Shown: positions 45,684 to 64,000, counted from the stretch's first letter. The stretch: 64,000 nucleotides of DNA from Desulfurivibrio alkaliphilus AHT 2 (GCF_000092205.1 NC_014216.1:1240001-1304000), one strand, 5' to 3'. Numbers and translations are program-made. Notes: generated by a model from the letters alone, not told the origin.

Positions 45684-46664
45684 TTATCCGCGGGCGGGGC
45701 TTAAGGCCAGCGAGGGCGGCAACAGATAGGGCAGAATCCGATCGCCCACCGCTTTGGTGCTCTCGGCCAGTTGCTGCAGAACCCGGTACTCGCCGCCGTT
45801 TTCCAGGGCGACGATATCCCAGGCTTCAGGATGGGCGGAAACCGCCTGCATCAGGCCAAGATGCTGGCCGTGCCCCGATTTCTCCGCCACCACCCGGCCC
45901 AGCAGCGGAAAGCCCAGCAGGGCCAGGTCGCCAACCAGGTCAAGCACCTTGTGTCGCACAAACTCATCGGCATAACGCAGGCCGTCGCTGTTCATGACCC
46001 CTTGGTCATTGATTACCACGGCGTTATCCAGGGAGCCGCCAAGGGCCAGGCCGTTTTTCCGCAACTGCTCTACTTCACGGAAAAAGCCAAATGTTCTGGC
46101 ACCGGCGATCTCGGTTGCGAAATTGTGCGGGGTGAGATCAATCTCAAATTGCTGGCTGCCGATCTCGGCATGGGCAAAATCAATCCGACAGTCTACCTGA
46201 AAACCACTGTAGGGCTCAATTCGCACCGAACGCCCCTGATCATCCTGGAAGCACACCTCCCGGTTGAACTTGAGCATCCAGCGCCGGGCCTGCTGCCGGC
46301 GGCGACCAACCCGGCGCAGCACCCGGACAAAGGGGGCGGCGCTACCGTCCATGATCGGCACTTCCGGACCGTCCACCACGATTACCGCGTTATCAATACC
46401 CAGGCCGTACAGCGCGGCCAACACGTGCTCCACCGTGGAAACCGAAGCCTTTCCCACGGTCTCAACGGTGGTTGCCAGGCGGGTATCTACCACCCGATCC
46501 ATAAATGCCGGAGTAGGCTCAAGTTGACCAAGATCGGAACGCAGCAGACGAATGCCGCTGTTGACTTCATCAGGGTAGATCGCCATCCGCACCGGTTTAC
46601 CGCTGTGCAAGCCGATCCCGGCAAAGCTGACGCTTTTCTTCAGGGTATGTTGCAGTGCATCCAT
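45684..46664 (-). CDS. lpxC: UDP-3-O-acyl-N-acetylglucosamine deacetylase
   Basis: Zinc enzyme for the committed step of lipid A synthesis. The 326-residue protein has QHTLKKSVSFAGIGLHSG, TVEHVLAALYGLGIDNA (metal His), EVPIMDGSAAPFV, RTFGFFREVEQLRKNGLALGG-type sequence (TFGFFREVEQL), RYADEFVRHKVLDLVGDLAL (metal His and Asp), and SGHGQHLGLM (general acid His in family position). The C-terminus is slightly extended. It forms a single-gene unit on the minus strand with its own terminator; lpxK lies upstream on the same strand but 374 bp away. Confidence 0.96.
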   Translation of the reverse strand: MDALQHTLKKSVSFAGIGLHSGKPVRMAIYPDEVNSGIRLLRSDLGQLEPTPAFMDRVVDTRLATTVETVGKASVSTVEHVLAALYGLGIDNAVIVVDGPEVPIMDGSAAPFVRVLRRVGRRRQQARRWMLKFNREVCFQDDQGRSVRIEPYSGFQVDCRIDFAHAEIGSQQFEIDLTPHNFATEIAGARTFGFFREVEQLRKNGLALGGSLDNAVVINDQGVMNSDGLRYADEFVRHKVLDLVGDLALLGFPLLGRVVAEKSGHGQHLGLMQAVSAHPEAWDIVALENGGEYRVLQQLAESTKAVGDRILPYLLPPSLALSPARG

Positions 46665-47038: not shown

Positions 47039-48124
47039 CTACTTCTTGACAACTTTCAGTCGCGCGCGGACAAAGCACTCAAAGCGCTCTTCCATGACCA
47101 GGCCCACCCGCAAGGCCAGCAAGGGAAGTTGCCCCTGCAGCGGGGCCAGCTTAACCAAATCTTTTTCGGTGGTGATCAGGGCATCGGCCCCCTGCTGGGC
47201 GGCCATCTGCACCAACGCCCGGTAATCCGCCGCCGTGTAACGGTGATGATCGGCATAAGCGCGAAAGCCGTTTAAGCGAAACCCCTCCTGCAACAAGGTC
47301 TGGCGAAACGATTCCGGCTGGGCGATCCCGGCAAAACCAAACCAGGATTTACCTTTACCTTCTTCCAAGGCCAAAGGGGCGACACCGTCACCGGCCAACA
47401 GGCAGAGCGGCCGATAGGCCCCGGTGAAACAGGGAAGCTGCGGAAAACGGCGATTAAGAAAACGGATAAAAGATTCTACTTGCGACGAGAACGCCGGGGT
47501 TACCCCGGTTATCACCACGCCATCGGCCCGCGCCAGTGCCGACCAGGGTTCGCGCAATGGTCCTCCCGGAAAAACCCTGGCCCCCACCGGGAGGTTGCGG
47601 GCGCTGAACAGGGCCAGGTTCAGATCCCGGGCCAAGGCCAGATGTTGGAAGCCGTCATCCAGGATCAAGCTGTCTACCCCCAGCCTGTCGACCCCGTAAC
47701 GGCCACTTACCGCCCGGCACGCATCGACCAGCACCGGAACCCCGGGAAGTGCCCGGGCCAACAGCACCGGCTCATCCCCCGCCACCTCCGGCCCCAGCAA
47801 CAGCCGGCGGCCATCGGCCACCACCAAAGGCCGGCCACCATCGGCAACGGTTCTCTTGCCGGCCTTTTTGACCCGGCCGTAACCACGGCTCAAAATGGCC
47901 GGCCGGTAACCCAACTCTTTAAGCAGGCGGGCCAGGTAAAGCACCAGCGGGGTTTTGCCGGTACCTCCCAGGGTTAGATTACCCACACTAACCACCGGCA
48001 CGATCATTTTTTCCTGCCCCAGCCAACCCCGCCGATAGAGCCAGGCCCGCAAACGCATCAGCCCGGCATACAGGGGGGCAAAGGGGCGCCCCAAGGCAAA
48101 CAATAGAGTAAGACGCAAACGCAC
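47039..48124 (-). CDS. lpxK: tetraacyldisaccharide 4'-kinase
   Basis: Phosphorylates the lipid A disaccharide at the 4' position at the inner membrane. The 361-residue protein shows VSVGNLTLGGTGKTPLVLYLA (P-loop; cited for GGTGKTP), ILSRGYGR, DEPVLLARALPGVPVLVD, ILDDGFQHLALARDLNL and FAGIAQPESF. The N-terminal hydrophobic segment provides membrane contact. GTG 48124 is preferred: GGAGGAGG lies three bases upstream, whereas the longer TTG start has none. Confidence 0.95.
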   Translation of the reverse strand: MRLRLTLLFALGRPFAPLYAGLMRLRAWLYRRGWLGQEKMIVPVVSVGNLTLGGTGKTPLVLYLARLLKELGYRPAILSRGYGRVKKAGKRTVADGGRPLVVADGRRLLLGPEVAGDEPVLLARALPGVPVLVDACRAVSGRYGVDRLGVDSLILDDGFQHLALARDLNLALFSARNLPVGARVFPGGPLREPWSALARADGVVITGVTPAFSSQVESFIRFLNRRFPQLPCFTGAYRPLCLLAGDGVAPLALEEGKGKSWFGFAGIAQPESFRQTLLQEGFRLNGFRAYADHHRYTAADYRALVQMAAQQGADALITTEKDLVKLAPLQGQLPLLALRVGLVMEERFECFVRARLKVVKK

Positions 48125-48253
48125 TATCCTCCTCCGCCCAGAAAAAGGCAACCCCCACCCTTCCGGAGCGCCGCAAAATTAACCATAATCCGACAACCTG
48201 CCGCATACATCATTACGACTTTGACTAACCCCCCAGCAACGGCTAGAATTGCG

Positions 48254-53162: not shown

Positions 53163-53825
53163 ATGATTGAAGACCGTACCGAACGCTGCCTGCGCCTGGC
53201 GCAGGAAGAACATTACTGCCCACACTGCCAGCAGCGGCTGTCCTGCTGCCAGGCGCCGCCATTTCATGTCGGCGACGGCCTTGGCTGGGGGTCCGACATT
53301 CTTTTTATCTGCCTTAACGACGAGTGCTCACTGTACGTGAGAAGCTGGCAGGAATTTGAGGATCGCTACGGTCATGCCGCTTCCTGCCGCTACATTCTCT
53401 GCCCCGGCAACGAAAAGGGCGAGGCGATGATGGTTGGCGGCCAGCAGGCCTTCAAGGGCCTGGAGGTGAACGTCGAAGCCCTGCAGCAGCAGAACCAGCG
53501 CCATGCCGCAGAGCAGGAGGCGGCGGCCAAACTGGCGGGCTGTGTCGAGGCGGGCGACCTGGCCCCGGTAATCCACCTGCTCACCGACGAACACGCCGAT
53601 TTGGCCACCCGTAAACAGGCCTGCGAGGCACTGGCCAGGTTTCAGGATCTTTCCTGCCTGGACCCCTTGCGCAACCACAAATTCCGCAATCCCGAACTGG
53701 AGCAGGAGGTCAATCTGGCCATCGGCACCATGCTGAAAAAAATGTATAAGAAGGAATGCCCCAACTGTGCCGAAATCGTCAAAAGCCAGGCCCCGACCTG
53801 CAAACATTGCGGCCATTCGTTTTAA
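53163..53825 (+). CDS. zinc-ribbon protein with HEAT-like middle region
   Basis: A 220-residue protein. The N-terminus has CPHCQQRLSCC and further cysteines (FICLNDECSLY, SCRYILC), suggesting a zinc-binding module. The middle region resembles a HEAT-like helical repeat (VIHLLTDEHADLATRKQACEALARF, cited for ATRKQACEALARF). The C-terminus is a clear zinc ribbon CPNCAEIVKSQAPTCKHCG. AAGGAG lies nine bases before the ATG. No membrane segment. The function is unknown; such proteins may bind nucleic acid or protein partners. Confidence 0.75.
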   Translation: MIEDRTERCLRLAQEEHYCPHCQQRLSCCQAPPFHVGDGLGWGSDILFICLNDECSLYVRSWQEFEDRYGHAASCRYILCPGNEKGEAMMVGGQQAFKGLEVNVEALQQQNQRHAAEQEAAAKLAGCVEAGDLAPVIHLLTDEHADLATRKQACEALARFQDLSCLDPLRNHKFRNPELEQEVNLAIGTMLKKMYKKECPNCAEIVKSQAPTCKHCGHSF

Positions 53826-54074: not shown

Positions 54075-55412
54075 TTATGAAGTTGGCCGGACGGCAGCCA
54101 GCTCGGCTTGCAGTTGTTGCCGAAAAAGATGCCAATGGCGGGCGAAGGCGGAACCCCGGAATGAATGCAGAACAACAGCGGTGGCATCGATGATGTGCAG
54201 TTGCCGGCCATCCCACCCCAAAACGTTGAGGCTATTGCCGACCAGGGTGATGCGGCCGGCTTGCATCAAGGCAAGCTGGTGATTAAGCTGCTCCTGCAGG
54301 GCTGATCGTTCCCGATCCCCTAAAGTTGACAGGCAGTCGGCCAGGGGCCTGACCCCGGTCGCCGACTGCAGCATAACCGCCGCCTCCCCCTTCCCTTTCA
54401 GCGCCGCAGGCCAAACCAGGGCCAGGTGTCTTTCCGTGCCAAGCCCCAAGCGGTTTGCGGTAAGCAGCGCCACCCAGATGCGAAAGGCCGCCCGACGAAC
54501 AAGCCACGGCCGCAGTGGTGCAAAAAAGCCGGTTGCAACCCCAATGGGCAGCCAGCGCACCGCTTGCCCGTCCAGCTCCAGCAGCCCACCAGCCGGCTTT
54601 AACTCCGCCTCACGCCGCCAGCCGGCCAACAGGCGCAAAGAGCTGGACTGGTCCAGGTGGCGCCGATCGCGAATAAGCCAGAACCCATCATGGCGCAGCC
54701 GGGGATAATGTTTCCAGCCCCGGCAAGCCCGGCGGGCAACCTGTTCCGCCTGTTGCCGCCGGGCGCGCCGTACCCGGGTGATGAAATCCTCTTCCTCACC
54801 CTGGCCGGCCAGCCATTGCCGCTGTTGCAAATACAATCGGAAGCCATCCCGAACCGTAGCTTCAGGCAACCTGGTTTTGGAGGCATACAGGCGAACCAGA
54901 TGCGCCAGGCCTTGCTTCCGGTTCAGGGGGGAGCGCAGACGGCGGACACGATCACCGTCGACGGCATAAAGGCGCCCCTGGCGGGGGATAAAATTCAGCC
55001 AGTTGAGATCGTTCTGCACGATTCCCGCCCGGTGATGCTCGGCCAGGGTCAAAATCAGCCGGGCATGGGCATCGCCGCAACGCTCGCTGTCCTCCGGTGG
55101 CCAGGGTTCATCGGCCTCGACCCACTCCTGCACCGTCAACCAGGCCCCGACCTCCGGCCGGTAACCGGCGTAATACAGAGCCGGAGCCGCCACCCCCGAG
55201 CTAAGCAAAGCCCGGGTGCCGCGTAACCCCCGGTACCACTCGTAAGCCTGGCCCACAGGAGCAACGTAAAACTTGGCCACCACCGCCACCCCGTCAAGTT
55301 CCCCTTTAAGCAACGCCCGCTTGCCGGGATAACGATGAAAAACCCGGCCGGTAAGCAGGGTCCCGAACCGGCCCAGGTCAAACCGGCGGTTGGCCAGATA
55401 GTCGTCGCCCAT
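54075..55412 (-). CDS. LPS kinase-like protein with two kinase-fold halves
   Basis: A 445-residue cytoplasmic protein. The N-terminal half looks like a WaaP/KdkA-type LPS kinase: GVAVVAKFYVAP (ATP-binding Lys), LTLAEHHRAGIVQNDLNWLNFI (catalytic Asp and Asn, with Gln-Asn where His-Gly/Arg is usual), YAVDGDRVRRL (metal Asp). The C-terminal half seems to repeat the fold in degenerate form: LMQAGRITLVGNSLNVLGWDG, then LHIIDATAV, keeping the Asn and Asp but not the catalytic Asp. The likely substrate is a lipid A/core sugar. TGATG links it to cysC, so both are in one operon. Confidence 0.72.
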   Translation of the reverse strand: MGDDYLANRRFDLGRFGTLLTGRVFHRYPGKRALLKGELDGVAVVAKFYVAPVGQAYEWYRGLRGTRALLSSGVAAPALYYAGYRPEVGAWLTVQEWVEADEPWPPEDSERCGDAHARLILTLAEHHRAGIVQNDLNWLNFIPRQGRLYAVDGDRVRRLRSPLNRKQGLAHLVRLYASKTRLPEATVRDGFRLYLQQRQWLAGQGEEEDFITRVRRARRQQAEQVARRACRGWKHYPRLRHDGFWLIRDRRHLDQSSSLRLLAGWRREAELKPAGGLLELDGQAVRWLPIGVATGFFAPLRPWLVRRAAFRIWVALLTANRLGLGTERHLALVWPAALKGKGEAAVMLQSATGVRPLADCLSTLGDRERSALQEQLNHQLALMQAGRITLVGNSLNVLGWDGRQLHIIDATAVVLHSFRGSAFARHWHLFRQQLQAELAAVRPTS

Positions 55413-56011
55413 CACTGCATGTTCATCTTGGCCAGGATAAACTCAACGGTGGTATCCACGCACTCTTCGAGGGAAGAAGCAACGGTATCCAAAACAAGGT
55501 CGGGCTGCCCAGGCTCTTCGTAAGGCGCGGAAACCCCGGTGTAATTTTTGATCTTACCTTGCCGGGCCAGCTTGTACAGACCCTTGACATCCCGCCGCTC
55601 ACACTCCTCAAGCGAGCATTTAACGTAAATTTCAAAAAACCGGCCGCAATCGATCAGATCGCGACACTTTTGGCGGTCGGCCCGCAGGGGGGAGATAAAG
55701 GCGGTCAGACAGATAATGCCGGCATCAAGGAAAAGCTTGACCATTTCCGAGATCCGGCGCAGGTTTTCCGCCCGACCCTCGGGGGAAAAGCTTAAGTCGC
55801 TGCAAAGCCCATGGCGAACGTTGTCGCCGTCAAAGACGTAGGTCAGCCGGCCCAGATCATAAAGCTTTTCCTCGACGGCATGAGCGATGGTGGATTTTCC
55901 GGAACCCGACAGGCCGGTAAACCACATCACCATGCTCTTCTGGCCCAGCAACTGCTGACGCAGATCACTGGTGATCTTTCCCCGATAGGGAACGGTATTA
56001 GGACTTTTCAT
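55412..56011 (-). CDS. cysC: adenylylsulfate (APS) kinase
   Basis: Phosphorylates APS at the 3' position to give PAPS, the sulfate donor. The 199-residue enzyme has the P-loop GLSGSGKST, DGDNVRHGL, FISPLRADR, and the KGLYKLARQGKIKNYTGVS region (cited for YTGVSAPYEEP), all standard for CysC. There is no fused sulfurylase. Its position, coupled to an LPS-kinase-like gene and near four sulfotransferases, suggests a supply of PAPS for glycan sulfation rather than cysteine synthesis. No PAPS reductase (CysH) is seen nearby. Confidence 0.95.
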   Translation of the reverse strand: MKSPNTVPYRGKITSDLRQQLLGQKSMVMWFTGLSGSGKSTIAHAVEEKLYDLGRLTYVFDGDNVRHGLCSDLSFSPEGRAENLRRISEMVKLFLDAGIICLTAFISPLRADRQKCRDLIDCGRFFEIYVKCSLEECERRDVKGLYKLARQGKIKNYTGVSAPYEEPGQPDLVLDTVASSLEECVDTTVEFILAKMNMQ

Positions 56012-56176
56012 AAGATAAGTTGCTTTTTAAAAAATGGTTGAAAACATCAGTGAAGCCCCACCGGATCATTTCAAGTGGGAGAAGAGGGGTTCCCGGGCCC
56101 AAGACATAAACCCCGGTCGCGATGACTTATTAGCTGTTTAAAGGTTTATTGTCAACCCGAAGATGCCATGCACCTT

Positions 56177-57391
56177 TCAGCCATTCACACCCAGCGCCGC
56201 CAGATATTGCCCGGCAGCCACCTCGGTGTGATTGGCCACAACCGCCTGACGCAAAAAATCAGGATCGGGGGGAGCCTTCAGGGTTGCATTAATCGCCTGC
56301 GCCATCGCCTGAACATCTCCCACCGGCACCAAGCGGCCATAACGACCGTTGGCCAGAGTTTCCGCCGGGCCGCTGGGGCAGTCCGTCGAGACCACCGGCG
56401 TCCCGCAGGCCAACGCCTCGACGATTACGGCGGAAGCACCCTCTCGTTGCGAAGCCAGCACAAACAGCCCGGCCTGCTGCATATGCCGGTAGGGGTTTGG
56501 GTCAAAACCGGGCAGATCGACATCGTCCGCCACCCCAAGCTGCGCCGCCAGTGCCAACAATTCCGACCGCTGCCGGCCTTTGCCAAGAATGATCAAGCAG
56601 CAGCGGCGATCACGGCGGACCAGGGCAAACGCCTGTATCAGGGTGGCAAAATCTTTTCGCGGCTCCAGCGAACCCACCCCCAAGATCACGGGATTATCTG
56701 CCTTGCCATACCAGGGATGGGCCACCGGCTCGGCAGCAAGCCGAAAAAAACGCGCATTGACAATGGGATTGCGAATAACCGACAGGCGTTCCGGTTGCAC
56801 CCCGGCAATTTCAATCAGATCATCGGCCACCCCCTGGGACGGAGTAACGGCTGCATCCGCCAACGGATACCAGCGACGCATGGAAGCAAACAGGGCCTTA
56901 CGTTGCGCCGGCTTCAGGTCTTTGCCCTTGGCCGTCACCGACATCCCCATCCGAATCACCACCCGGGTCGGCACCCCGGTGAGCCTGCGCGCCAACAACA
57001 GTGCCCGGTTGAGCTCATGGTTGGCGGTCAGCATCGCCTGGGGCCGATGGCGCCACAAGTACCAGAGCAGGCAGGGCAACACCGTTTTTTTGCTGCTCAC
57101 CGGCAGCCGGATCACCCGGACATTGTCGGGCACCTCTTCCAGGTAAGGCCCGTGCCCGCGAATTTGCAGCAAATCGAAGCGATGGGAGGTACGGCCAAAT
57201 TCCGGCAGCAGGTTTTGCACCACCCGATCCACCCCGCTGTGGCCGGAGGTGGCAAACAGCAAAGCCAGGTGCCGGCTTAAAACTTCCTTTGCCTGTTTAG
57301 AGTTTGAGGAATTATTTTGAGTTCCTGCCACAGTATTGTGTCCGTTTAGGGTACGAAAAGTGGTGAGCGAAAATCGGTTGACAACCGGCAT
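56177..57391 (-). CDS. GT4-family glycosyltransferase
   Basis: A retaining GT-B glycosyltransferase of up to 404 residues. The C-terminal Glycos_transf_1 domain contains ILGVGSLEPRKDFATLI, CLIILGKGRQRSEL, VDLPGFDPNPYRHMQQAGLFV, and REGASAVIVEALACGTPVV with the nucleotide-sugar Glu (EALACGTP). The N-terminal acceptor domain begins LALLFATSGHSGVDRVV, about residue 42, so the first ~40 residues may not be translated; no clear ribosome site identifies the start. It resembles the GT at 61947, suggesting related donors. It probably adds a core or O-antigen sugar. Confidence 0.88.
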   Translation of the reverse strand: MPVVNRFSLTTFRTLNGHNTVAGTQNNSSNSKQAKEVLSRHLALLFATSGHSGVDRVVQNLLPEFGRTSHRFDLLQIRGHGPYLEEVPDNVRVIRLPVSSKKTVLPCLLWYLWRHRPQAMLTANHELNRALLLARRLTGVPTRVVIRMGMSVTAKGKDLKPAQRKALFASMRRWYPLADAAVTPSQGVADDLIEIAGVQPERLSVIRNPIVNARFFRLAAEPVAHPWYGKADNPVILGVGSLEPRKDFATLIQAFALVRRDRRCCLIILGKGRQRSELLALAAQLGVADDVDLPGFDPNPYRHMQQAGLFVLASQREGASAVIVEALACGTPVVSTDCPSGPAETLANGRYGRLVPVGDVQAMAQAINATLKAPPDPDFLRQAVVANHTEVAAGQYLAALGVNG

Positions 57392-57515
57392 GGCAGCCGA
57401 TACAAGAAAAGCCTTTGCTTATGGTGGACGAACAGTGGCTACGCCTATGCTCTCCGATATCATTACTGACTTACTACGGTATCCGACGCAACACTCCAAT
57501 GCAACTGCACAAAGG

Positions 57516-57556
57516 GTAAGCGTTCATGTCGTTGTTGGTGAACCGTAATCGTTCAG
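57516..57556. repeat. tandem short arms of the palindrome family
   Basis: GTAAGCGTTCA (57516-57526) and GTAATCGTTCAGC (57544-57556) lie 17 bases apart in the divergent spacer between the GT4 and first sulfotransferase genes. Both match the arm start of the long copies, and GTTCA/TGAAC pairs between them. No longer palindrome is seen, so this may be a remnant. Confidence 0.4.
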
Positions 57557-57592
57557 CGGCTCACTGGCGACAGTACCGGAGGCGACACTTCT

Positions 57593-58405
57593 TTGAAAAG
57601 AGCAGAAAAAACCTATATTCAACGAATTACCAGCCGAATACGCTCGTTTCGCTACAGCTGGAAACCATTTTATCGTCATTGCGGGCTAAACCGTTTCGAC
57701 CATCCGGTACACGCCAACGCCAATGTCCCGACCATTGATGCCCGCATTGCCATAAGCCACGCCAATCGTTTTCTCTTCGTGCGCATTCCCAAATGCGCCA
57801 ACACCACCATCCTGAGTACTCTATGGTTATGTGAAAATGGTATGTCTCCCGAGGACCTGGCATCATTGCCAGCCCAGGAACAAAAAAAAATGATGCGCAA
57901 GCAAAACATGATGCAGTTGTTCAGCCGACCTTCCGAACTGTCCAGCAGTGCGGCCCAAACCGTGCTGAAAAAATACTGCAAAGCCGTTATTGTCCGCAAC
58001 CCCTTTAGCAGAGCGGCCTCAGCTTATCTGCACAAATTTCGCAACGGCAATGCCGCGCAAAAATTCGGGCTGCCAAGCAACCTTTCCTTTGCCGGATTTT
58101 GTGACTACCTGCGTGACGGCGGACTCCATGACGATATCCACTGGATGCCCCAGAGCCATATCTGTCCTCTGCCGCCGGGAACAATGGATTTCATCGGCAA
58201 AATGGAAAACCTGGCCATTGATCTGCCACGCCTTACCAATATTGTTTACGGACGTTCGGCCACAATCTTTACCCGCCAACATCATACCACACAAGCGAAC
58301 AACCATTTACGAGAACTCTACGGCACACATGAAAAAAGGCGGGTAGCGGAACTCTACGCCGAAGATTTCACTTGCTTTGGTTACCAACCCGACAAATTAT
58401 CATAA
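57593..58405 (+). CDS. PAPS-dependent sulfotransferase (family 2-like)
   Basis: A 270-residue protein. The 5'-phosphosulfate binding loop is FLFVRIPKCANTTIL and the 3'-phosphate site VIVRNPFSRAASAYLHKF, the hallmarks of Sulfotransfer_2 carbohydrate enzymes. Later MDFIGKMENLAIDLPRL matches the region following the acceptor site. It has no signal peptide or membrane segment, so it would act on nucleotide- or lipid-linked sugars in the cytoplasm. TTG at 57593 has GGAGG ten bases upstream. First of three sulfotransferase genes on the plus strand. Confidence 0.87.
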   Translation: MKRAEKTYIQRITSRIRSFRYSWKPFYRHCGLNRFDHPVHANANVPTIDARIAISHANRFLFVRIPKCANTTILSTLWLCENGMSPEDLASLPAQEQKKMMRKQNMMQLFSRPSELSSSAAQTVLKKYCKAVIVRNPFSRAASAYLHKFRNGNAAQKFGLPSNLSFAGFCDYLRDGGLHDDIHWMPQSHICPLPPGTMDFIGKMENLAIDLPRLTNIVYGRSATIFTRQHHTTQANNHLRELYGTHEKRRVAELYAEDFTCFGYQPDKLS

Positions 58406-58463
58406 GTTTTCTCACAACACCCTCCCGTTATAACGGGCCATAACACCCTTTGGATCAACACCA

Positions 58464-59225
58464 ATGCACCTGTCTCGCCGGCTCAGTGAACTTTTCAACC
58501 CCCTTCTGAATTCATTGGATGGCCGCGTGCAACGCCATCGCGTTAACAGTCGCATCCTGATTTCCGAACCCAACCGGTTTGTTTTTTACCGGATTCCCAA
58601 GGCTGGCCATTCAACGGTGGGCAAAACCCTGGTTTACTACGATCCGCATCTCACCTCGGAAGAGCGCCAAGAAATTACGCTCAGCGGCAGCAAATCCGGG
58701 CCTTATCTCCACCCCAGGGAACTGGGACGCAGCCGGGCGCGGGTTGCCTGGCGGGAGTACTTCAAACTGACCTTTGTGCGTAACCCCTATCGTCGGGTGC
58801 TCTCGGCCTATCTCGATAAGATTGCCCGTATTAAGCCCGCCACCAAGAATCTGGGAACATCCCCCGTCGACGAACAGGGTCAACCACTGCCCTTTCTTGC
58901 GTTTCTGGATCAAATCAAAGGGGCCGCCCTTTACGAAGGACCCCATTGGGCGCCGCAAGTTGCCCTGCTGCCCCGCGATCTTGCTCGCTTGGATTTCATT
59001 GGTCGCCTGGAAAAAATCGACACCGACCTGGCCACGGTGATTGAACGCGTTTACGGACGCAAAATGGCCAGCGGGGTGCAAAATTGGGATAGCCACAAAA
59101 CCAAATCGGGAGACGATTTTCACCGCTATTACGACGGATCAGCCATCGACACGGTGCGCCATCTGTACCGGGAGGATTTCGAGGCCTTTGGCTATTCCCT
59201 GGACCCGGAAACGGCACTCCGCTGA
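58464..59225 (+). CDS. PAPS-dependent sulfotransferase (family 2-like)
   Basis: A 253-residue relative of its upstream neighbour. FVFYRIPKAGHSTVGKTL is the phosphosulfate loop and LTFVRNPYRRVLSAYLDKI the 3'-phosphate site; LDFIGRLEKIDTDL matches the FIGR/K-x-E block shared by all three plus-strand enzymes. The C-terminus LYREDFEAFGYSLD is nearly the same phrase as LYAEDFTCFGYQPD in the previous protein, pointing to duplication. The loop has His-Ser in place of Asn-Thr. Likely acceptor is a sugar of the locally made glycan. Confidence 0.88.
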   Translation: MHLSRRLSELFNPLLNSLDGRVQRHRVNSRILISEPNRFVFYRIPKAGHSTVGKTLVYYDPHLTSEERQEITLSGSKSGPYLHPRELGRSRARVAWREYFKLTFVRNPYRRVLSAYLDKIARIKPATKNLGTSPVDEQGQPLPFLAFLDQIKGAALYEGPHWAPQVALLPRDLARLDFIGRLEKIDTDLATVIERVYGRKMASGVQNWDSHKTKSGDDFHRYYDGSAIDTVRHLYREDFEAFGYSLDPETALR

Positions 59226-59258
59226 CCAGGCACCACTTAACCGTAAGAGGAAATTGCC

Positions 59259-60011
59259 ATGATCATCAGCCACCGCCACCGTTTTATCTTTGTCCACTGC
59301 CGCAAGGTGGCCGGTAGCTCCATGAAAGTGACCATTGCCCCTCACCTGGGCCCGGCCGATATTATCCTGGGCAGCTACCAGGAGCTTTTCCGGGACAGCA
59401 GTTTTTTTACCCCTCAGGTCCTGGGTGAAGCCCTGCGTCCCCATGGGTTGCGAGAATTGGCCTCCGGCTTGCTCCGGGGGCGTAATTGGCGCAACTCCAT
59501 AAACAAGGCTGTCAAGCGGCGTTACAAAAAGGCCTTTGGCCTCTCATCATCCGGTCATCCCACCGCCACCGATATCCGCCAGGCTTTCCCGGAGGCCTGG
59601 AACAGTTATTTCAAGTTCTGCTTTGTGCGCAATCCCTACGAACGGGCGGTTTCCGATTACCTTTATCTAACGCGCAGGGATGCCGCCTCGCCCTCGTTCA
59701 GCGACTACCTTCGCCAACTTAGTGAATCCAAACGGGATCTCCATGGCCGGGATAAATACGACAACTGGCCCATGTACACCATTGGAGAGCAACCGGTCAT
59801 GGATTTCATCGGCCGTTACGAGAACTTATCGTCAGATTTCAGCAAAGCAATGGAGAAGGTCGGACTTTCAGGAGTTAAGCTGACTGCCTCGGAAAAGCGC
59901 CGAAACTATCAAAAGCCTTGGCGTGAATACTACGGGCCCGGCGACCGCGAGCTGGTGGAAGCTCTGTACAGCAAAGAGATAGGTTATTTCGGCTATACTT
60001 TCGAAGCATAA
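59259..60011 (+). CDS. PAPS-dependent sulfotransferase (family 2-like)
   Basis: A 250-residue enzyme with FIFVHCRKVAGSSMKVTI (phosphosulfate loop) and FKFCFVRNPYERAVSDYLYL (cited for FCFVRNPYERAVSDYL). MDFIGRYENLSSDF and LYSKEIGYFGYTFE repeat the conserved tail seen in the other two. AGAGGAA lies eight bases before the ATG. The three tandem enzymes have different loop residues, suggesting different acceptor positions or sugars. Confidence 0.88.
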   Translation: MIISHRHRFIFVHCRKVAGSSMKVTIAPHLGPADIILGSYQELFRDSSFFTPQVLGEALRPHGLRELASGLLRGRNWRNSINKAVKRRYKKAFGLSSSGHPTATDIRQAFPEAWNSYFKFCFVRNPYERAVSDYLYLTRRDAASPSFSDYLRQLSESKRDLHGRDKYDNWPMYTIGEQPVMDFIGRYENLSSDFSKAMEKVGLSGVKLTASEKRRNYQKPWREYYGPGDRELVEALYSKEIGYFGYTFEA

Positions 60012-60080
60012 CCAGGACACACCAGCAAAACCCTGCCGTCGTCTTTAGGCACCCCCACAAAGGTCGAAATTATCCGCCTT

Positions 60081-60833
60081 TCACCCGGCGCAAGCTTTGC
60101 CGATCAGAGCGGCCGCCTTAGCCACCGCCTCCCGCGGTCGCTGCCCAGTATCAACCCTGACCACAACCGCTCCCCGTTGGGCCAGCATACGGCACCCATC
60201 CTCACTAATCGCCCGGGCCGATTCCACCATGGCATGAAAACGCTGCACCGCCGGGTTACGCTGCGTCAGCCGGGCGTGAATAACCTCGGTTGGCGCGGTA
60301 ACGTTGATCACCACCTTCGGCAATGGCATGAGTCGAAAATAAACCTGGCTGACCGCCGGCTCAGACCCCTGCCCCAGACTTACTCCCCGCTGGGCCAAAC
60401 CTTCGTCGAACAAGACCAGCTCCCTGCCCGGCAGGCGATCGACCGCATGGGCCAAGGCAACCTGGCGAATAAAGCTGAGCAGGCGCTCAAGCCGCAAGGC
60501 TGGATCAACTTCAGTGGAACCGGCGTTTTCCAGGCCATGGGCCAAGAATTCCGGCCAGGGCGATGCCGCCTCCCGCAAGCGCTTGTACTCCCCGCGCACC
60601 ATCTCTTTTTCATACTTGTGGCGCATCCAGCGCTGCAATCCTTGGCGGCCATAAAACCAGCTTTCAAGCCGGCGCGACAACAAACCGGCCCGTTGCTGCT
60701 CCTGTTTAACCACCAAGGGAACCCAGCGGGCAGACAAAACCGCCCGCCCCTGCCTGAGCAGAGCTTGCTGCAGGGCGCCCATAACCGTTGTCTTGCCCAC
60801 TCCGGGGGGACCGATAAGCTCAAGACGTTCCAT
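60081..60833 (-). CDS. P-loop kinase-like protein
   Basis: A 250-residue P-loop NTPase. MERLELIGPPGVGKTTVM gives a clear Walker A. ELVLFDEGLAQRGV is a Walker-B-like strand, and VINVTAPTEVIHARLTQRN resembles the lid region of nucleoside or sugar kinases. No partner domain is present. It may phosphorylate a small molecule or a sugar in the glycan pathway; the substrate is unknown. ATG 60833 starts two bases after the stop of the upstream kinase-fold gene, so they are one operon; an earlier TTG would overlap that gene. Confidence 0.7.
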   Translation of the reverse strand: MERLELIGPPGVGKTTVMGALQQALLRQGRAVLSARWVPLVVKQEQQRAGLLSRRLESWFYGRQGLQRWMRHKYEKEMVRGEYKRLREAASPWPEFLAHGLENAGSTEVDPALRLERLLSFIRQVALAHAVDRLPGRELVLFDEGLAQRGVSLGQGSEPAVSQVYFRLMPLPKVVINVTAPTEVIHARLTQRNPAVQRFHAMVESARAISEDGCRMLAQRGAVVVRVDTGQRPREAVAKAAALIGKACAG

Positions 60834-60835
60834 GC

Positions 60836-61930
60836 CTAGCCCATTTTGCAATCATGGCGAATTTTTTCTGCCGCCCCGATCAGTTTTTCCCGGCGCCGGG
60901 CGGAACTGGAACTGCTGAACTGGGGGCGAAAGGCGTGGGCAACAACCATCGCCAGAAGGGCGGGAACCCGCCACCGGGCTTGCCACTTTCTTCCTGCCAC
61001 CGCCCAAATGGCAGCCAGTTCGGCATCATAGTCACCAGCCAGATAAGCTTGGCGCAGCACGGCATTAACTTCACCGGAACCGCGCAACAGCGAGAGGGCG
61101 TCAAAAAAGAACGGCAGTGGTTGTACTCGTTCAAGGTCGATCAGAATCAGGCTGCCATCGGGCTGGACCACCACATTGCCGTTATGGCAATCTCCATGGC
61201 CGGCCAATAGCGGGCAGTCCGCCAAAAGCTCCTGTAAACCCGTCTGGTGTTCACTGAAAGCACGAGCCAGCCAAGGGGGGATTTGCCAGCGGCTCAGCTC
61301 GGCCATAACCGGGGCAAAACCAAAACGGCCCTCACACCAGGCGGCATGCTTTTGACACACACTAAGCAGTTGGCGAAAAACCGGGTCCCATTGCCTCGGT
61401 ACGGCAGCACGGATGGGACATCCAGCGACAAAATCTTCGCGCACACCGTACAGCCCCTCCAGATCCAGCCGGGCTTCTTCAATCCAGGGCACCGGATAGG
61501 AGCGGCGCAACCACTCGGCATTGCGGGTCAGCCGCGCCACCAGTTCCGGGCGGGAAGTCAAACGAAGGACGTGATCCCGGCCGGCCGCCACCAGAATAAC
61601 CCAATCCCTCCGCTGAATGAGCGTATCATAAAGGGGGGTGGCCGCTCCTGCCGGCGGCGCAATTTTATACGGACGCCCCACGAGCCGGTGCAGTAGCCAG
61701 GGAAAGTGGTCAGTGCCGGCCTCCTGCAAGCCCCGCTGGTAATCATCCGGTTGCCCTGTCGGCCCGGCGGGAGCCAAGGCCAAACCACCGCTTATGTGAT
61801 AATTTCCCGGGAGCATCAGCGGCTGCAAACGTTCCAAGGATCGCCTGACATCATTTTGCCGCCGCAGCTTCGCCAGCAGCCCGTTACCCGTCTTCATCGG
61901 CTTACCTGTTGCAAACAAGTTGGGAACCAT
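60836..61930 (-). CDS. APH-fold phosphotransferase
   Basis: A 364-residue protein with the aminoglycoside phosphotransferase/choline kinase fold. LAGHGDCHNGNVVV is the catalytic loop (Asp and Asn) and LILIDLERVQPLPF the metal-binding Asp. The N-terminal ~120 residues have no recognised domain and may bind the acceptor. In a glycan island it may phosphorylate a sugar or lipid head group, or transfer a choline-like group; antibiotic modification is less likely. The start could be 61930 or an ATG at 61897. Confidence 0.75.
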   Translation of the reverse strand: MVPNLFATGKPMKTGNGLLAKLRRQNDVRRSLERLQPLMLPGNYHISGGLALAPAGPTGQPDDYQRGLQEAGTDHFPWLLHRLVGRPYKIAPPAGAATPLYDTLIQRRDWVILVAAGRDHVLRLTSRPELVARLTRNAEWLRRSYPVPWIEEARLDLEGLYGVREDFVAGCPIRAAVPRQWDPVFRQLLSVCQKHAAWCEGRFGFAPVMAELSRWQIPPWLARAFSEHQTGLQELLADCPLLAGHGDCHNGNVVVQPDGSLILIDLERVQPLPFFFDALSLLRGSGEVNAVLRQAYLAGDYDAELAAIWAVAGRKWQARWRVPALLAMVVAHAFRPQFSSSSSARRREKLIGAAEKIRHDCKMG

Positions 61931-61946
61931 GGCAACAGCGGCAACA

Positions 61947-63038
61947 TTATTGCAACCCCATGGTTCGCAAGTAATGGGCCGCTACCTTATCACTGCGAAA
62001 TCGCTCCAGCCCTTCCTGCAACAAGCCGGCAGGGGGCGGTTCGGCCAGCACCGCCGCCATAGCTTCGCTCATGGCAAGCTCCTCGCCGATGGGCACTAAA
62101 GGCCCCAGCCGCCCCCCCAGCAGAATTTCATCGGGACCGCTGGGGCAATCGGTACAAACCACCGGCGTGCCGGCCGCCAAGGCCTCAATAACCACATTGG
62201 CCAAGCCTTCATAGCGGGAAGAAAGGACAAAAAGCGAGGCCCTGGCCAGCCAGGGGATCGGATCCTGCACGTAGCCCGGCAGGTCAACATCCTCAGCTAT
62301 GCCCAACTCCCTGGCCTCAGCTTGCAGATCGTTCCGCAACGGTCCCTCCCCCAAGATAATCAAGCGGCAAAGCCGTTGCCGGCGCAAGCGAGCAAAGGCC
62401 CGCAGCAGAGTGACAAAATCTTTCTGCGGGGTAAGTCGGCCGATACCCATCACCACCGGCGGGCCATCGCCCGCCAACCAGGGATGACCCATCGGCAAGC
62501 GGCGACGTTCGGCGATATCCGGGGTTACCGTCGGATTGTAAATCACCTCCACCTGCTCGGGATCAACGGCAAAGTTGTCAATCAGATCACTGCGCACCCC
62601 ACTGGAAACCGCAATCAACCGGTTTGCCCGTGGGTAGAGCCAGCGTGCGGAATACCTTTTAACCGGCCGCCGCAAAGTTTCGCTTAAGGTGTTGGTGACC
62701 TTAACATAGATGGGCACCTGGGAGCGTGCCAAAGCTCGGCCAACCAGAGCTATCTTGGCGGCATGATCCTTGGCGGTCAACAGGGCCCGCGGCTGGCAAC
62801 GCCGCAGATAACGGGCCACTTTCAACACCCCGTCCTGTTTACCCCGATTTCGCAGATCGACCACCTCGACCCCGTCGGGAAATTCATCCGGATAAGGCAC
62901 CTCCCCGCCCCGGGCCAGCAGCAGCTGCACCCGTACCCCCTGGGCCAGAAATTCCCGGCACAAAATCATGATCTTGCGCTCAATCCCTCCCCAGGCTTTA
63001 AGCGGGGCCAAAATGGTGAGATCCGGTGGCTGGCTCAT
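61947..63038 (-). CDS. GT4-family glycosyltransferase
   Basis: A 363-residue GT-B enzyme. The N-terminal half has PLKAWGGIERKIMILCREFL (acceptor-binding loop with Gly-Gly), and the C-terminal half VVMGIGRLTPQKDFVTLLRA, LIILGEGPLRNDL, VDLPGYVQDPIPWLARASLFV and RYEGLANVVIEALAAGTPVV. It is similar to the GT at 56177 in the last 150 residues. Its start overlaps the sulfotransferase stop as ATGA. It probably builds the glycan that the sulfotransferases modify. Confidence 0.93.
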   Translation of the reverse strand: MSQPPDLTILAPLKAWGGIERKIMILCREFLAQGVRVQLLLARGGEVPYPDEFPDGVEVVDLRNRGKQDGVLKVARYLRRCQPRALLTAKDHAAKIALVGRALARSQVPIYVKVTNTLSETLRRPVKRYSARWLYPRANRLIAVSSGVRSDLIDNFAVDPEQVEVIYNPTVTPDIAERRRLPMGHPWLAGDGPPVVMGIGRLTPQKDFVTLLRAFARLRRQRLCRLIILGEGPLRNDLQAEARELGIAEDVDLPGYVQDPIPWLARASLFVLSSRYEGLANVVIEALAAGTPVVCTDCPSGPDEILLGGRLGPLVPIGEELAMSEAMAAVLAEPPPAGLLQEGLERFRSDKVAAHYLRTMGLQ

Positions 63039-63943
63039 GCGCTCTCCTCTGGAGCAAGGTCTTCGGGTTTACCTGCATAGCCATACTTGGCCAACACCGA
63101 CTGGTAGCGGCGGCTGAACTCACGTAATTCTTCGCGCCGGGTCCAGGCGTGGGCCCGTTCGGGCCGAAAGGCGGCAGCGGCTGCCTGCAGGCTGCTTTCA
63201 TCCGCTTTACAACCGCAAAAAGCCAAGGCCCGGCGCAAGTTCGGCAACGGGTCGGCCAGCATTGCTTCATATTGCATGGTAACCGCCTGCGCCCCCAGCT
63301 GCTGCACGTGCTCCAAAGCCCGCGCAACATAAAGCTGCCAGAGCTCAAAACCGCCCTCCAACGTGCGGCACCGCACCTGGGGACCAAAACCGCGCCACTT
63401 GGGCGCCAGGGGATTCAGCCAGGACCAGTGGCGCCGCTGCTGATAGCGCTCGATGCGCCGTTCAAATTCCTGCTGGCGGCGCTGGCGCAGACTGGCAGCC
63501 ACATCAACGCCATGGCGGACGATGTGCAACACTTTGGCGTCTGGAAAAAGTTCCAGCCATAGGGGCAGGGTAAAGGTGTTACGCGGATCTTTCCAGCCCC
63601 AGGGCCCTTGCTGGCCGGGCAAGCCACCGCGCTGCAAACCGCGCTTTAACCCCAAAAAGCGCAGCGCCGCCGGCCCCCGGATAATCCCCCCCATATAGTC
63701 CAGCAACCAGGGCTTGAGCGCGTTATCGGCCAGCAACAGGTCCATGGGCTCCGGGCAATCCCAGGTGGCCGAGGCCTGCCGAAACAGCCAGGCGTTGATG
63801 GCGTTGGTAAAGGCCGCTTCCTCGTTGCGACTGGTACCCCGGCCCATGAAAAAACCGGCCTGCTGCAGCACCCGGGTCAGCAAGCTGGTGCCCGAGCGAT
63901 GCATGCCGATGATGATTACCGGGGGAGTCGTGGGTGTCTTCAT
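63035..63943 (-). CDS. PAPS-dependent sulfotransferase (Sulfotransfer_3-like)
   Basis: A 302-residue protein distinct from the three plus-strand enzymes. VIIIGMHRSGTSLLTRVLQQ is the phosphosulfate loop and KVLHIVRHGVDVAASLRQR the 3'-phosphate site, both as in the Sulfotransfer_1/3 families. WGWKDPRNTF is typical of this class. The C-terminus RYQSVLAKYGY is also common. It overlaps the downstream GT4 gene by four bases and probably an unseen upstream gene likewise, so it belongs to the minus-strand glycan operon. Confidence 0.88.
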   Translation of the reverse strand: MKTPTTPPVIIIGMHRSGTSLLTRVLQQAGFFMGRGTSRNEEAAFTNAINAWLFRQASATWDCPEPMDLLLADNALKPWLLDYMGGIIRGPAALRFLGLKRGLQRGGLPGQQGPWGWKDPRNTFTLPLWLELFPDAKVLHIVRHGVDVAASLRQRRQQEFERRIERYQQRRHWSWLNPLAPKWRGFGPQVRCRTLEGGFELWQLYVARALEHVQQLGAQAVTMQYEAMLADPLPNLRRALAFCGCKADESSLQAAAAAFRPERAHAWTRREELREFSRRYQSVLAKYGYAGKPEDLAPEESA

Positions 63944-64000
63944 GGGACGGCCCGTTCACTCTCAGCCGGCTTGCAGCGGGGGGAGAGCCCAAAAAAATCC
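63940..64000 (-). CDS. C-terminal end of an upstream gene (partial)
   Basis: On the minus strand a frame open to the window edge ends DFFGLSPRCKPAESERAVP with a TGA that overlaps the sulfotransferase ATG (ATGA). The same four-base overlap joins the next two genes of this operon, so this is probably the tail of a co-transcribed gene. Nothing can be said of its function. Confidence 0.4.
   Translation of the reverse strand, partial: DFFGLSPRCKPAESERAVP

Follow-up and report, generated by a model that had tools for sequence, protein, structure and literature searches.

The co-location of PAPS synthesis genes with sulfotransferase genes in a polysaccharide cluster is regarded as a hallmark of sulfated polysaccharides (PMC11641403). 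Two described clusters carry this combination beside glycosyltransferase genes: that of Vibrio sp. KMM 8419, a capsule locus that duplicates cysNDC and has three sulfotransferase genes and an ABC exporter (PMC11641403), and, as reported, the capsule locus of Cobetia marina KMM 1449 (PMC11766843). LPS itself is modified by LpsS of Sinorhizobium meliloti, an LPS sulfotransferase of the Stf0 family described as the product of a single regulated gene (PMC12445080, citing Cronan and Keating 2004). The enterobacterial waa (rfa) core locus combines HldE/GmhA/GmhB supply, a heptosyltransferase, GT4 enzymes, LPS kinases and a WaaL-like ligase, and its decoration is phosphate. The Desulfurivibrio locus described here has counterparts of these waa components, the WaaL-like ligase as a candidate, to which it adds a sulfation module and a Kdo kinase of the KdkA type, and it presents the hallmark combination, with CysC and sulfotransferases co-located with glycosyltransferases. 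Its sulfotransferases are of the PAPS type, like LpsS; unlike that one Stf0 enzyme, they number seven, fall in PF03567, PF13469 and PF00685 rather than in Stf0, and lie in a core locus with an APS kinase. Compared with the KMM 8419 cluster, the locus has cysC only (there is no CysD in the genome), seven sulfotransferases and heptose-core genes, the last of which also set it apart from the KMM 1449 capsule locus as described. LPS sulfation and polysaccharide loci that pair CysC with sulfotransferases are known; what is new is the core location, the multiplicity and the proposed respiratory source of APS. Our searches of the open-access literature turned up neither a heptose-core locus with multiple sulfotransferases nor any account of sulfated LPS or core in the Desulfobulbales.

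Desulfurivibrio alkaliphilus AHT2 is a haloalkaliphile from Egyptian soda lakes (PMC5016858). During sulfide oxidation its dissimilatory sulfate pathway is proposed to operate in the reverse direction, sulfur disproportionation is reported as well, and growth is not by sulfate reduction (PMC5516251). An earlier note on this DNA had considered a sulfate-reducing host, a description that agrees with the gene content but not with the physiology, the enzymes being thought to run oxidatively (PMC5516251). By examining the gene content of the locus, its conservation in related genomes, and the supply of and demand for PAPS in the whole genome, we hypothesize, with a probability of about 0.7, that this is an LPS-core locus whose product is sulfated, the sulfotransferases acting on core sugars with PAPS made by CysC. 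More broadly, this bacterium probably sulfates its surface sugars, taking the activated sulfate from its energy metabolism.

The window, that is, the whole stretch of 64,000 nucleotides analysed, comprises bases 1240001-1304000 of a complete, single-contig genome of 3,097,763 bp. Gene calling in the window and the next 20 kb placed the locus at window-equivalent positions 54075-74685 (20.6 kb, ending at genome position 1314685), such that it runs 10.7 kb beyond the window edge and includes a further three sulfotransferases there. The 10-kb island of the earlier note was therefore made of real genes, all ten of which were confirmed at their coordinates, but was incomplete in extent; likewise, its four sulfotransferases of two types (three PF03567, one PF13469) and two GT4 enzymes (56177-57391 and 61947-63038) stand for the window and become seven sulfotransferases of three Pfam types and four GT4 enzymes for the whole locus. 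The overlapping gene ends it had pointed out are there, with 4 bp shared at 55412-55415, 16 bp at 60836-60851, 4 bp at 63035-63038 and 4 bp at 63940-63943. A tRNA-His gene adjoins the locus. Gene order is the same throughout the locus in D. dismutans AMeS2, a distinct species whose mean amino-acid identity is 84.9% (PMC12142623); no locus gene is missing there, the Kdo kinase is in place, and ST1-ST3 are inverted as in D. alkaliphilus. The genes are as follows, with window-equivalent coordinates for those past the window end (from GT4c to HldE) and with two lipid A genes, which lie some 6 kb away on the other side, given first as context only:

45684-46664, minus strand: LpxC
47039-48151, minus strand: LpxK
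54075-55415, minus strand: LPS-kinase-like protein, Kdo/WaaP superfamily, two-lobed
55412-56011, minus strand: CysC, APS kinase (PF01583, E=1e-63)
56177-57391, minus strand: GT4 glycosyltransferase a (GT4a), 87% identity with its AMeS2 counterpart
57593-58405, plus strand: sulfotransferase ST1 (PF03567; motifs RIPKCANTT and VRNPFSRAASAY; dN/dS 0.11)
58464-59225, plus strand: sulfotransferase ST2 (PF03567; dN/dS 0.06)
59259-60011, plus strand: sulfotransferase ST3 (PF03567; dN/dS 0.09)
60081-60851, minus strand: P-loop protein, conserved in AMeS2
60836-61930, minus strand: APH-fold phosphotransferase (PF01636, E=8e-8)
61947-63038, minus strand: GT4 glycosyltransferase b (GT4b)
63035-63943, minus strand: sulfotransferase ST4 (PF13469, Sulfotransfer_3)
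63940-65121, minus strand: GT4c
65128-66579, minus strand: WaaL-like protein (PF04932 Wzy_C, E=4e-18; 11 hydrophobic segments)
66576-67436, minus strand: sulfotransferase ST5 (PF00685, Sulfotransfer_1)
67452-68177, minus strand: sulfotransferase ST6 (Sulfotransfer_2)
68243-69346, minus strand: GT4d
69415-70089, minus strand: sulfotransferase ST7 (Sulfotransfer_2)
70137-70877, minus strand: Kdo kinase KdkA (251 bits, cut-off 142)
70876-71928, plus strand: GT9 heptosyltransferase (E=8.5e-48)
72097-72645, minus strand: GmhB (184 bits, cut-off 149.6)
72653-73237, minus strand: GmhA (212 bits, below the equivalog cut-off)
73234-74685, minus strand: HldE (715 bits, cut-off 521)

Judged by its gene content, the whole 20.6-kb region is an LPS-core locus that contains a sulfation module. 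By sequence the ADP-heptose supply set (HldE, GmhA and GmhB) is complete. HldE and the Kdo kinase score over their curated cut-offs, and the best-scoring family for GmhA is phosphoheptose isomerase. Heptose supply, Kdo kinase and GT9 heptosyltransferase, together with the nearby LpxC and LpxK, identify the locus as one for the LPS core, which also holds a WaaL-like ligase candidate, the four GT4 enzymes and two further phosphotransferases. It had been proposed to search the flanks for Wzx/Wzy, WaaA and further transferases, and that search yielded HldE, GmhA, GmhB, the Kdo kinase, the GT9 enzyme and the WaaL-like protein. Among the locus genes there is no Kdo transferase WaaA, flippase, capsule or ABC exporter, initiating sugar-phosphate transferase or NDP-sugar pathway other than that for heptose, and all but the first of these absences argue against the alternative that the sulfotransferases act on O-antigen or another exported polysaccharide instead of the core, with the Wzy_C protein as a polymerase and the GT4 enzymes building a repeat unit beside heptose genes. 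The Wzy_C family (PF04932) includes ligases and polymerases alike and does not tell them apart, and predicted O-antigen sulfotransferases are known elsewhere (PMC11641403). The Wzy_C gene is also the sole fast diverger of the locus (40% identity with AMeS2 versus 62-90% for the remaining genes), as expected of an O-chain enzyme; such divergence is likewise expected where two species have the same core but different O-chains, and, unlike the Wzy_C proteins, the GT4 enzymes and sulfotransferases are conserved from one species to the other. We consider O-antigen or another exported polysaccharide an unlikely target, and prefer the core.

Eight recognised sulfotransferases were found in a whole-genome search with PF03567, PF13469 and PF00685, seven of them in the locus. 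That 7 of 8 fall within 21 of the 2,676 genes (hypergeometric P about 5e-15) means that their clustering is not due to chance. They span three Pfam types, PF03567 (ST1-ST3, ST6, ST7), PF13469 (ST4) and PF00685 (ST5), and all seven have the 5' and 3' PAPS-binding motifs: K67 and RNP...S are invariant across the aligned Sulfotransfer_2 (PF03567) set, while ST4 has RSGTS and IVRHGVDVAAS and ST5 has PKCGRTW and IRDPRDVLVSS. Recent tandem duplication was rejected as their origin, since the Sulfotransfer_2 members of the locus share only 26-39% pairwise identity and a tree splits ST1/ST2 from ST3/ST6/ST7. Given this divergence, and given that ST4 and ST5 belong to other families, the enzymes look to have been acquired one at a time, as would suit different acceptor positions. 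A tblastn search of phages with ST1 returned no matches, so there is no sign of a phage origin for this gene. The eighth sulfotransferase (PF03567; genome 1178694-1179467, minus strand) stands alone, near unrelated glucokinase-like and 6-phosphogluconolactonase-like genes.

PAPS synthesis and LPS core assembly both take place in the cytosol, and the lack of any predicted membrane segment in the seven sulfotransferases fits action there. Sulfotransferase families are broad in the acceptors they use, and some or all of these enzymes could be imagined to target small metabolites, lipids or peptides, their LPS neighbourhood being incidental; ST5 in particular is most like plant cytosolic and steroid sulfotransferases, its closest solved relatives being cytosolic small-molecule enzymes (5e-16). 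PF03567, by contrast, is chiefly a carbohydrate sulfotransferase family, and the best match of the Sulfotransfer_2 profile among solved structures is heparan sulfate 6-O-sulfotransferase (HS6ST), at a weak E=0.0035. Moreover, seven such genes in one LPS locus, alternating with glycosyltransferases in an order kept between species, would be hard to reconcile with an incidental neighbourhood, and we regard small acceptors as improbable and core sugars as the better candidates. A predicted structure of ST2 (pLDDT 41, from a 6-row alignment) gave no usable fold or acceptor pocket.

The APS kinase of the earlier note, at 55412-56011, was confirmed by PF01583 and by an apsK score of 239.8 bits against a cut-off of 138.7. 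Aligned to 3uie, its active-site region is almost identical to that of Arabidopsis APK1, and the P-loop and APS-binding motifs GLSGSGKST, DGDNVRHGL, RAENLRR and KGLYKLARQGKIKNYTG are present. It is the sole intact APS kinase in the genome; another apparent one, at 1176235, was rejected as a CooC-like ATPase. In Campylobacter a CysC homologue is used in capsule phosphoramidate synthesis, and stand-alone cysC genes do occur in relatives beside polysaccharide genes without detected homologues of the locus sulfotransferases, a point against the sulfation proposal as well. Were the Desulfurivibrio protein such an enzyme, the sulfotransferases would be idle or would draw PAPS from elsewhere; the score and active site just described, the absence of another intact APS kinase and the strong purifying selection on the sulfotransferases make this very improbable, and we take CysC to be a genuine APS kinase. 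A second cysC (genome about 2133383-2133640, minus strand) breaks off after about 105 residues at an IS3-type element, within another polysaccharide locus that has UDP-Glc dehydrogenase, a mannose-1-P guanylyltransferase-like protein, a glycosyltransferase and a heparinase II/III-like protein; this suggests a decayed second glycan-sulfation locus. The nearest relatives of the intact CysC are from Desulfurivibrio; outside the genus, close relatives include those of Desulfonatronovibrio MAGs, from a different order, at 75-78%, with most Desulfobulbales copies at 55-67%, which hints at exchange of CysC between lineages.

In most bacteria APS kinase serves assimilation as well as sulfation. Here, a search of five Desulfurivibrio genomes found no PF01507 protein in any, whereas all 14 control genomes had one; PF01507 covers both the PAPS reductase CysH and CysD, so its absence means that neither is present. 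Without PAPS reductase, PAPS has no known consumer other than the sulfotransferases and no detectable assimilatory use. The genome has a single, stand-alone ATP sulfurylase (Sat) and no dedicated CysQ to recycle the by-product PAP was found in it, its one Inositol_P protein scoring better as an inositol monophosphatase, a point that counts against the proposal. Gene content and the sole intact CysC thus uphold the idea of a locus that sulfates surface glycan and makes the PAPS for this itself, and the related suggestion that the locus diverts respiratory APS gains strength from the one Sat, the one intact CysC and the lack of PF01507. PAPS would here have only sulfation to serve, and its precursor would come from energy metabolism, through a pathway whose proposed direction is towards sulfate.

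Conservation points the same way for the sulfotransferases: against AMeS2, dN/dS is 0.05-0.15 across the seven and 0.05 for CysC, values by which the sulfotransferases are under purifying selection. In a third genome, MAG CSSed10_361, fragments carry CysC, the LPS-kinase-like gene and ST4-ST7. Of the five Desulfurivibrio genomes, three have both Sulfotransfer_2 and strong apsK, and two smaller ones are without Sulfotransfer_2, strong apsK and HldE, so that, in this small sample, these features come and go together. Sulfotransfer_2 occurs in 26 of 194 genomes of the order, D. alkaliphilus having the most matches (six), and strong apsK was found in 25 of these 26 versus 110 of the 168 others (Fisher P=5e-4), a test that is only supporting evidence because it ignores relatedness and because many of the APS kinases are bifunctional Sat-CysC proteins. 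A recent, laterally acquired, tRNA-linked island is unsupported: the gene order and the flanking protein genes are shared with AMeS2, and heptose core genes lie inside the locus. The GC contents of ST1 (49%) and of ST3 and CysC (54%), lower than that of the genome (60%), allow an older acquisition of these genes. AMeS2 has two additional genes between ST1 and GT4a, for a GT4 enzyme and an FkbM-type methyltransferase, which D. alkaliphilus is without, and the cores of the two species therefore probably differ by one methylated sugar.

From gene content, conservation and pathway logic we infer a core sulfate, its positions and its role along the following lines. APS would arise through AprAB, from the sulfite of sulfide or sulfur oxidation, or through Sat, and CysC would phosphorylate it to PAPS in the cytosol. 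As the GT4 enzymes lengthen the core on the cytoplasmic side, the sulfotransferases would O-sulfate different sugars in it with PAPS as the donor; the sulfated core would then be flipped, and O-antigen could be added by the WaaL-like ligase. Together with phosphates from the kinases, the sulfates might provide the surface with a negative charge that stays fixed at pH 9.5-10 and high Na+, a role that is our guess. The most specific version of this proposal, in which the soda-lake Desulfurivibrio core bears several sulfates, up to seven distinct O-sulfations, with APS from the reversed dissimilatory sulfate pathway, stands at about even odds. If true, an LPS with many sulfates on its core oligosaccharide would be out of the ordinary and could help to keep the envelope strongly anionic at pH 10, and energy metabolism would directly supply the decoration of the outer membrane. 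The presence of the locus in two cultured species makes the proposal directly testable, and the seven sulfotransferases, divergent and conserved, are candidate glycan-sulfating enzymes.

The other phosphotransferases may contribute phosphate. The LPS-kinase-like protein has no Pfam match by itself; 3 of the 7 members of its homologue alignment match Kdo/WaaP PF06293, and the family profile matches the RfaP structure weakly, through the second half. This bears out the earlier reading of the protein, as PF01636 does for the APH-fold phosphotransferase, while the supposed P-loop kinase survives as a P-loop protein at 60081-60851 with AAA matches that are sub-threshold only. In the LPS-kinase-like protein, the N-terminal catalytic residues H128, G131, D136, N141 and D153 are invariant in seven homologues, and the C-terminal half looks degenerate, with its catalytic loop apparently missing. 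The family has the appearance of a tandem double kinase, one homologue retaining a second catalytic loop, HGDMKGQN, which seems to have been lost from the Desulfurivibrio protein; a predicted structure of the latter reached pLDDT 39 from a 3-row alignment. Just outside the locus, window positions 53163-53825 encode a 220-aa protein that has no NCBIfam match, with a C-terminal zinc-ribbon-like motif, a HEAT-like middle and 93% identity with its AMeS2 counterpart.
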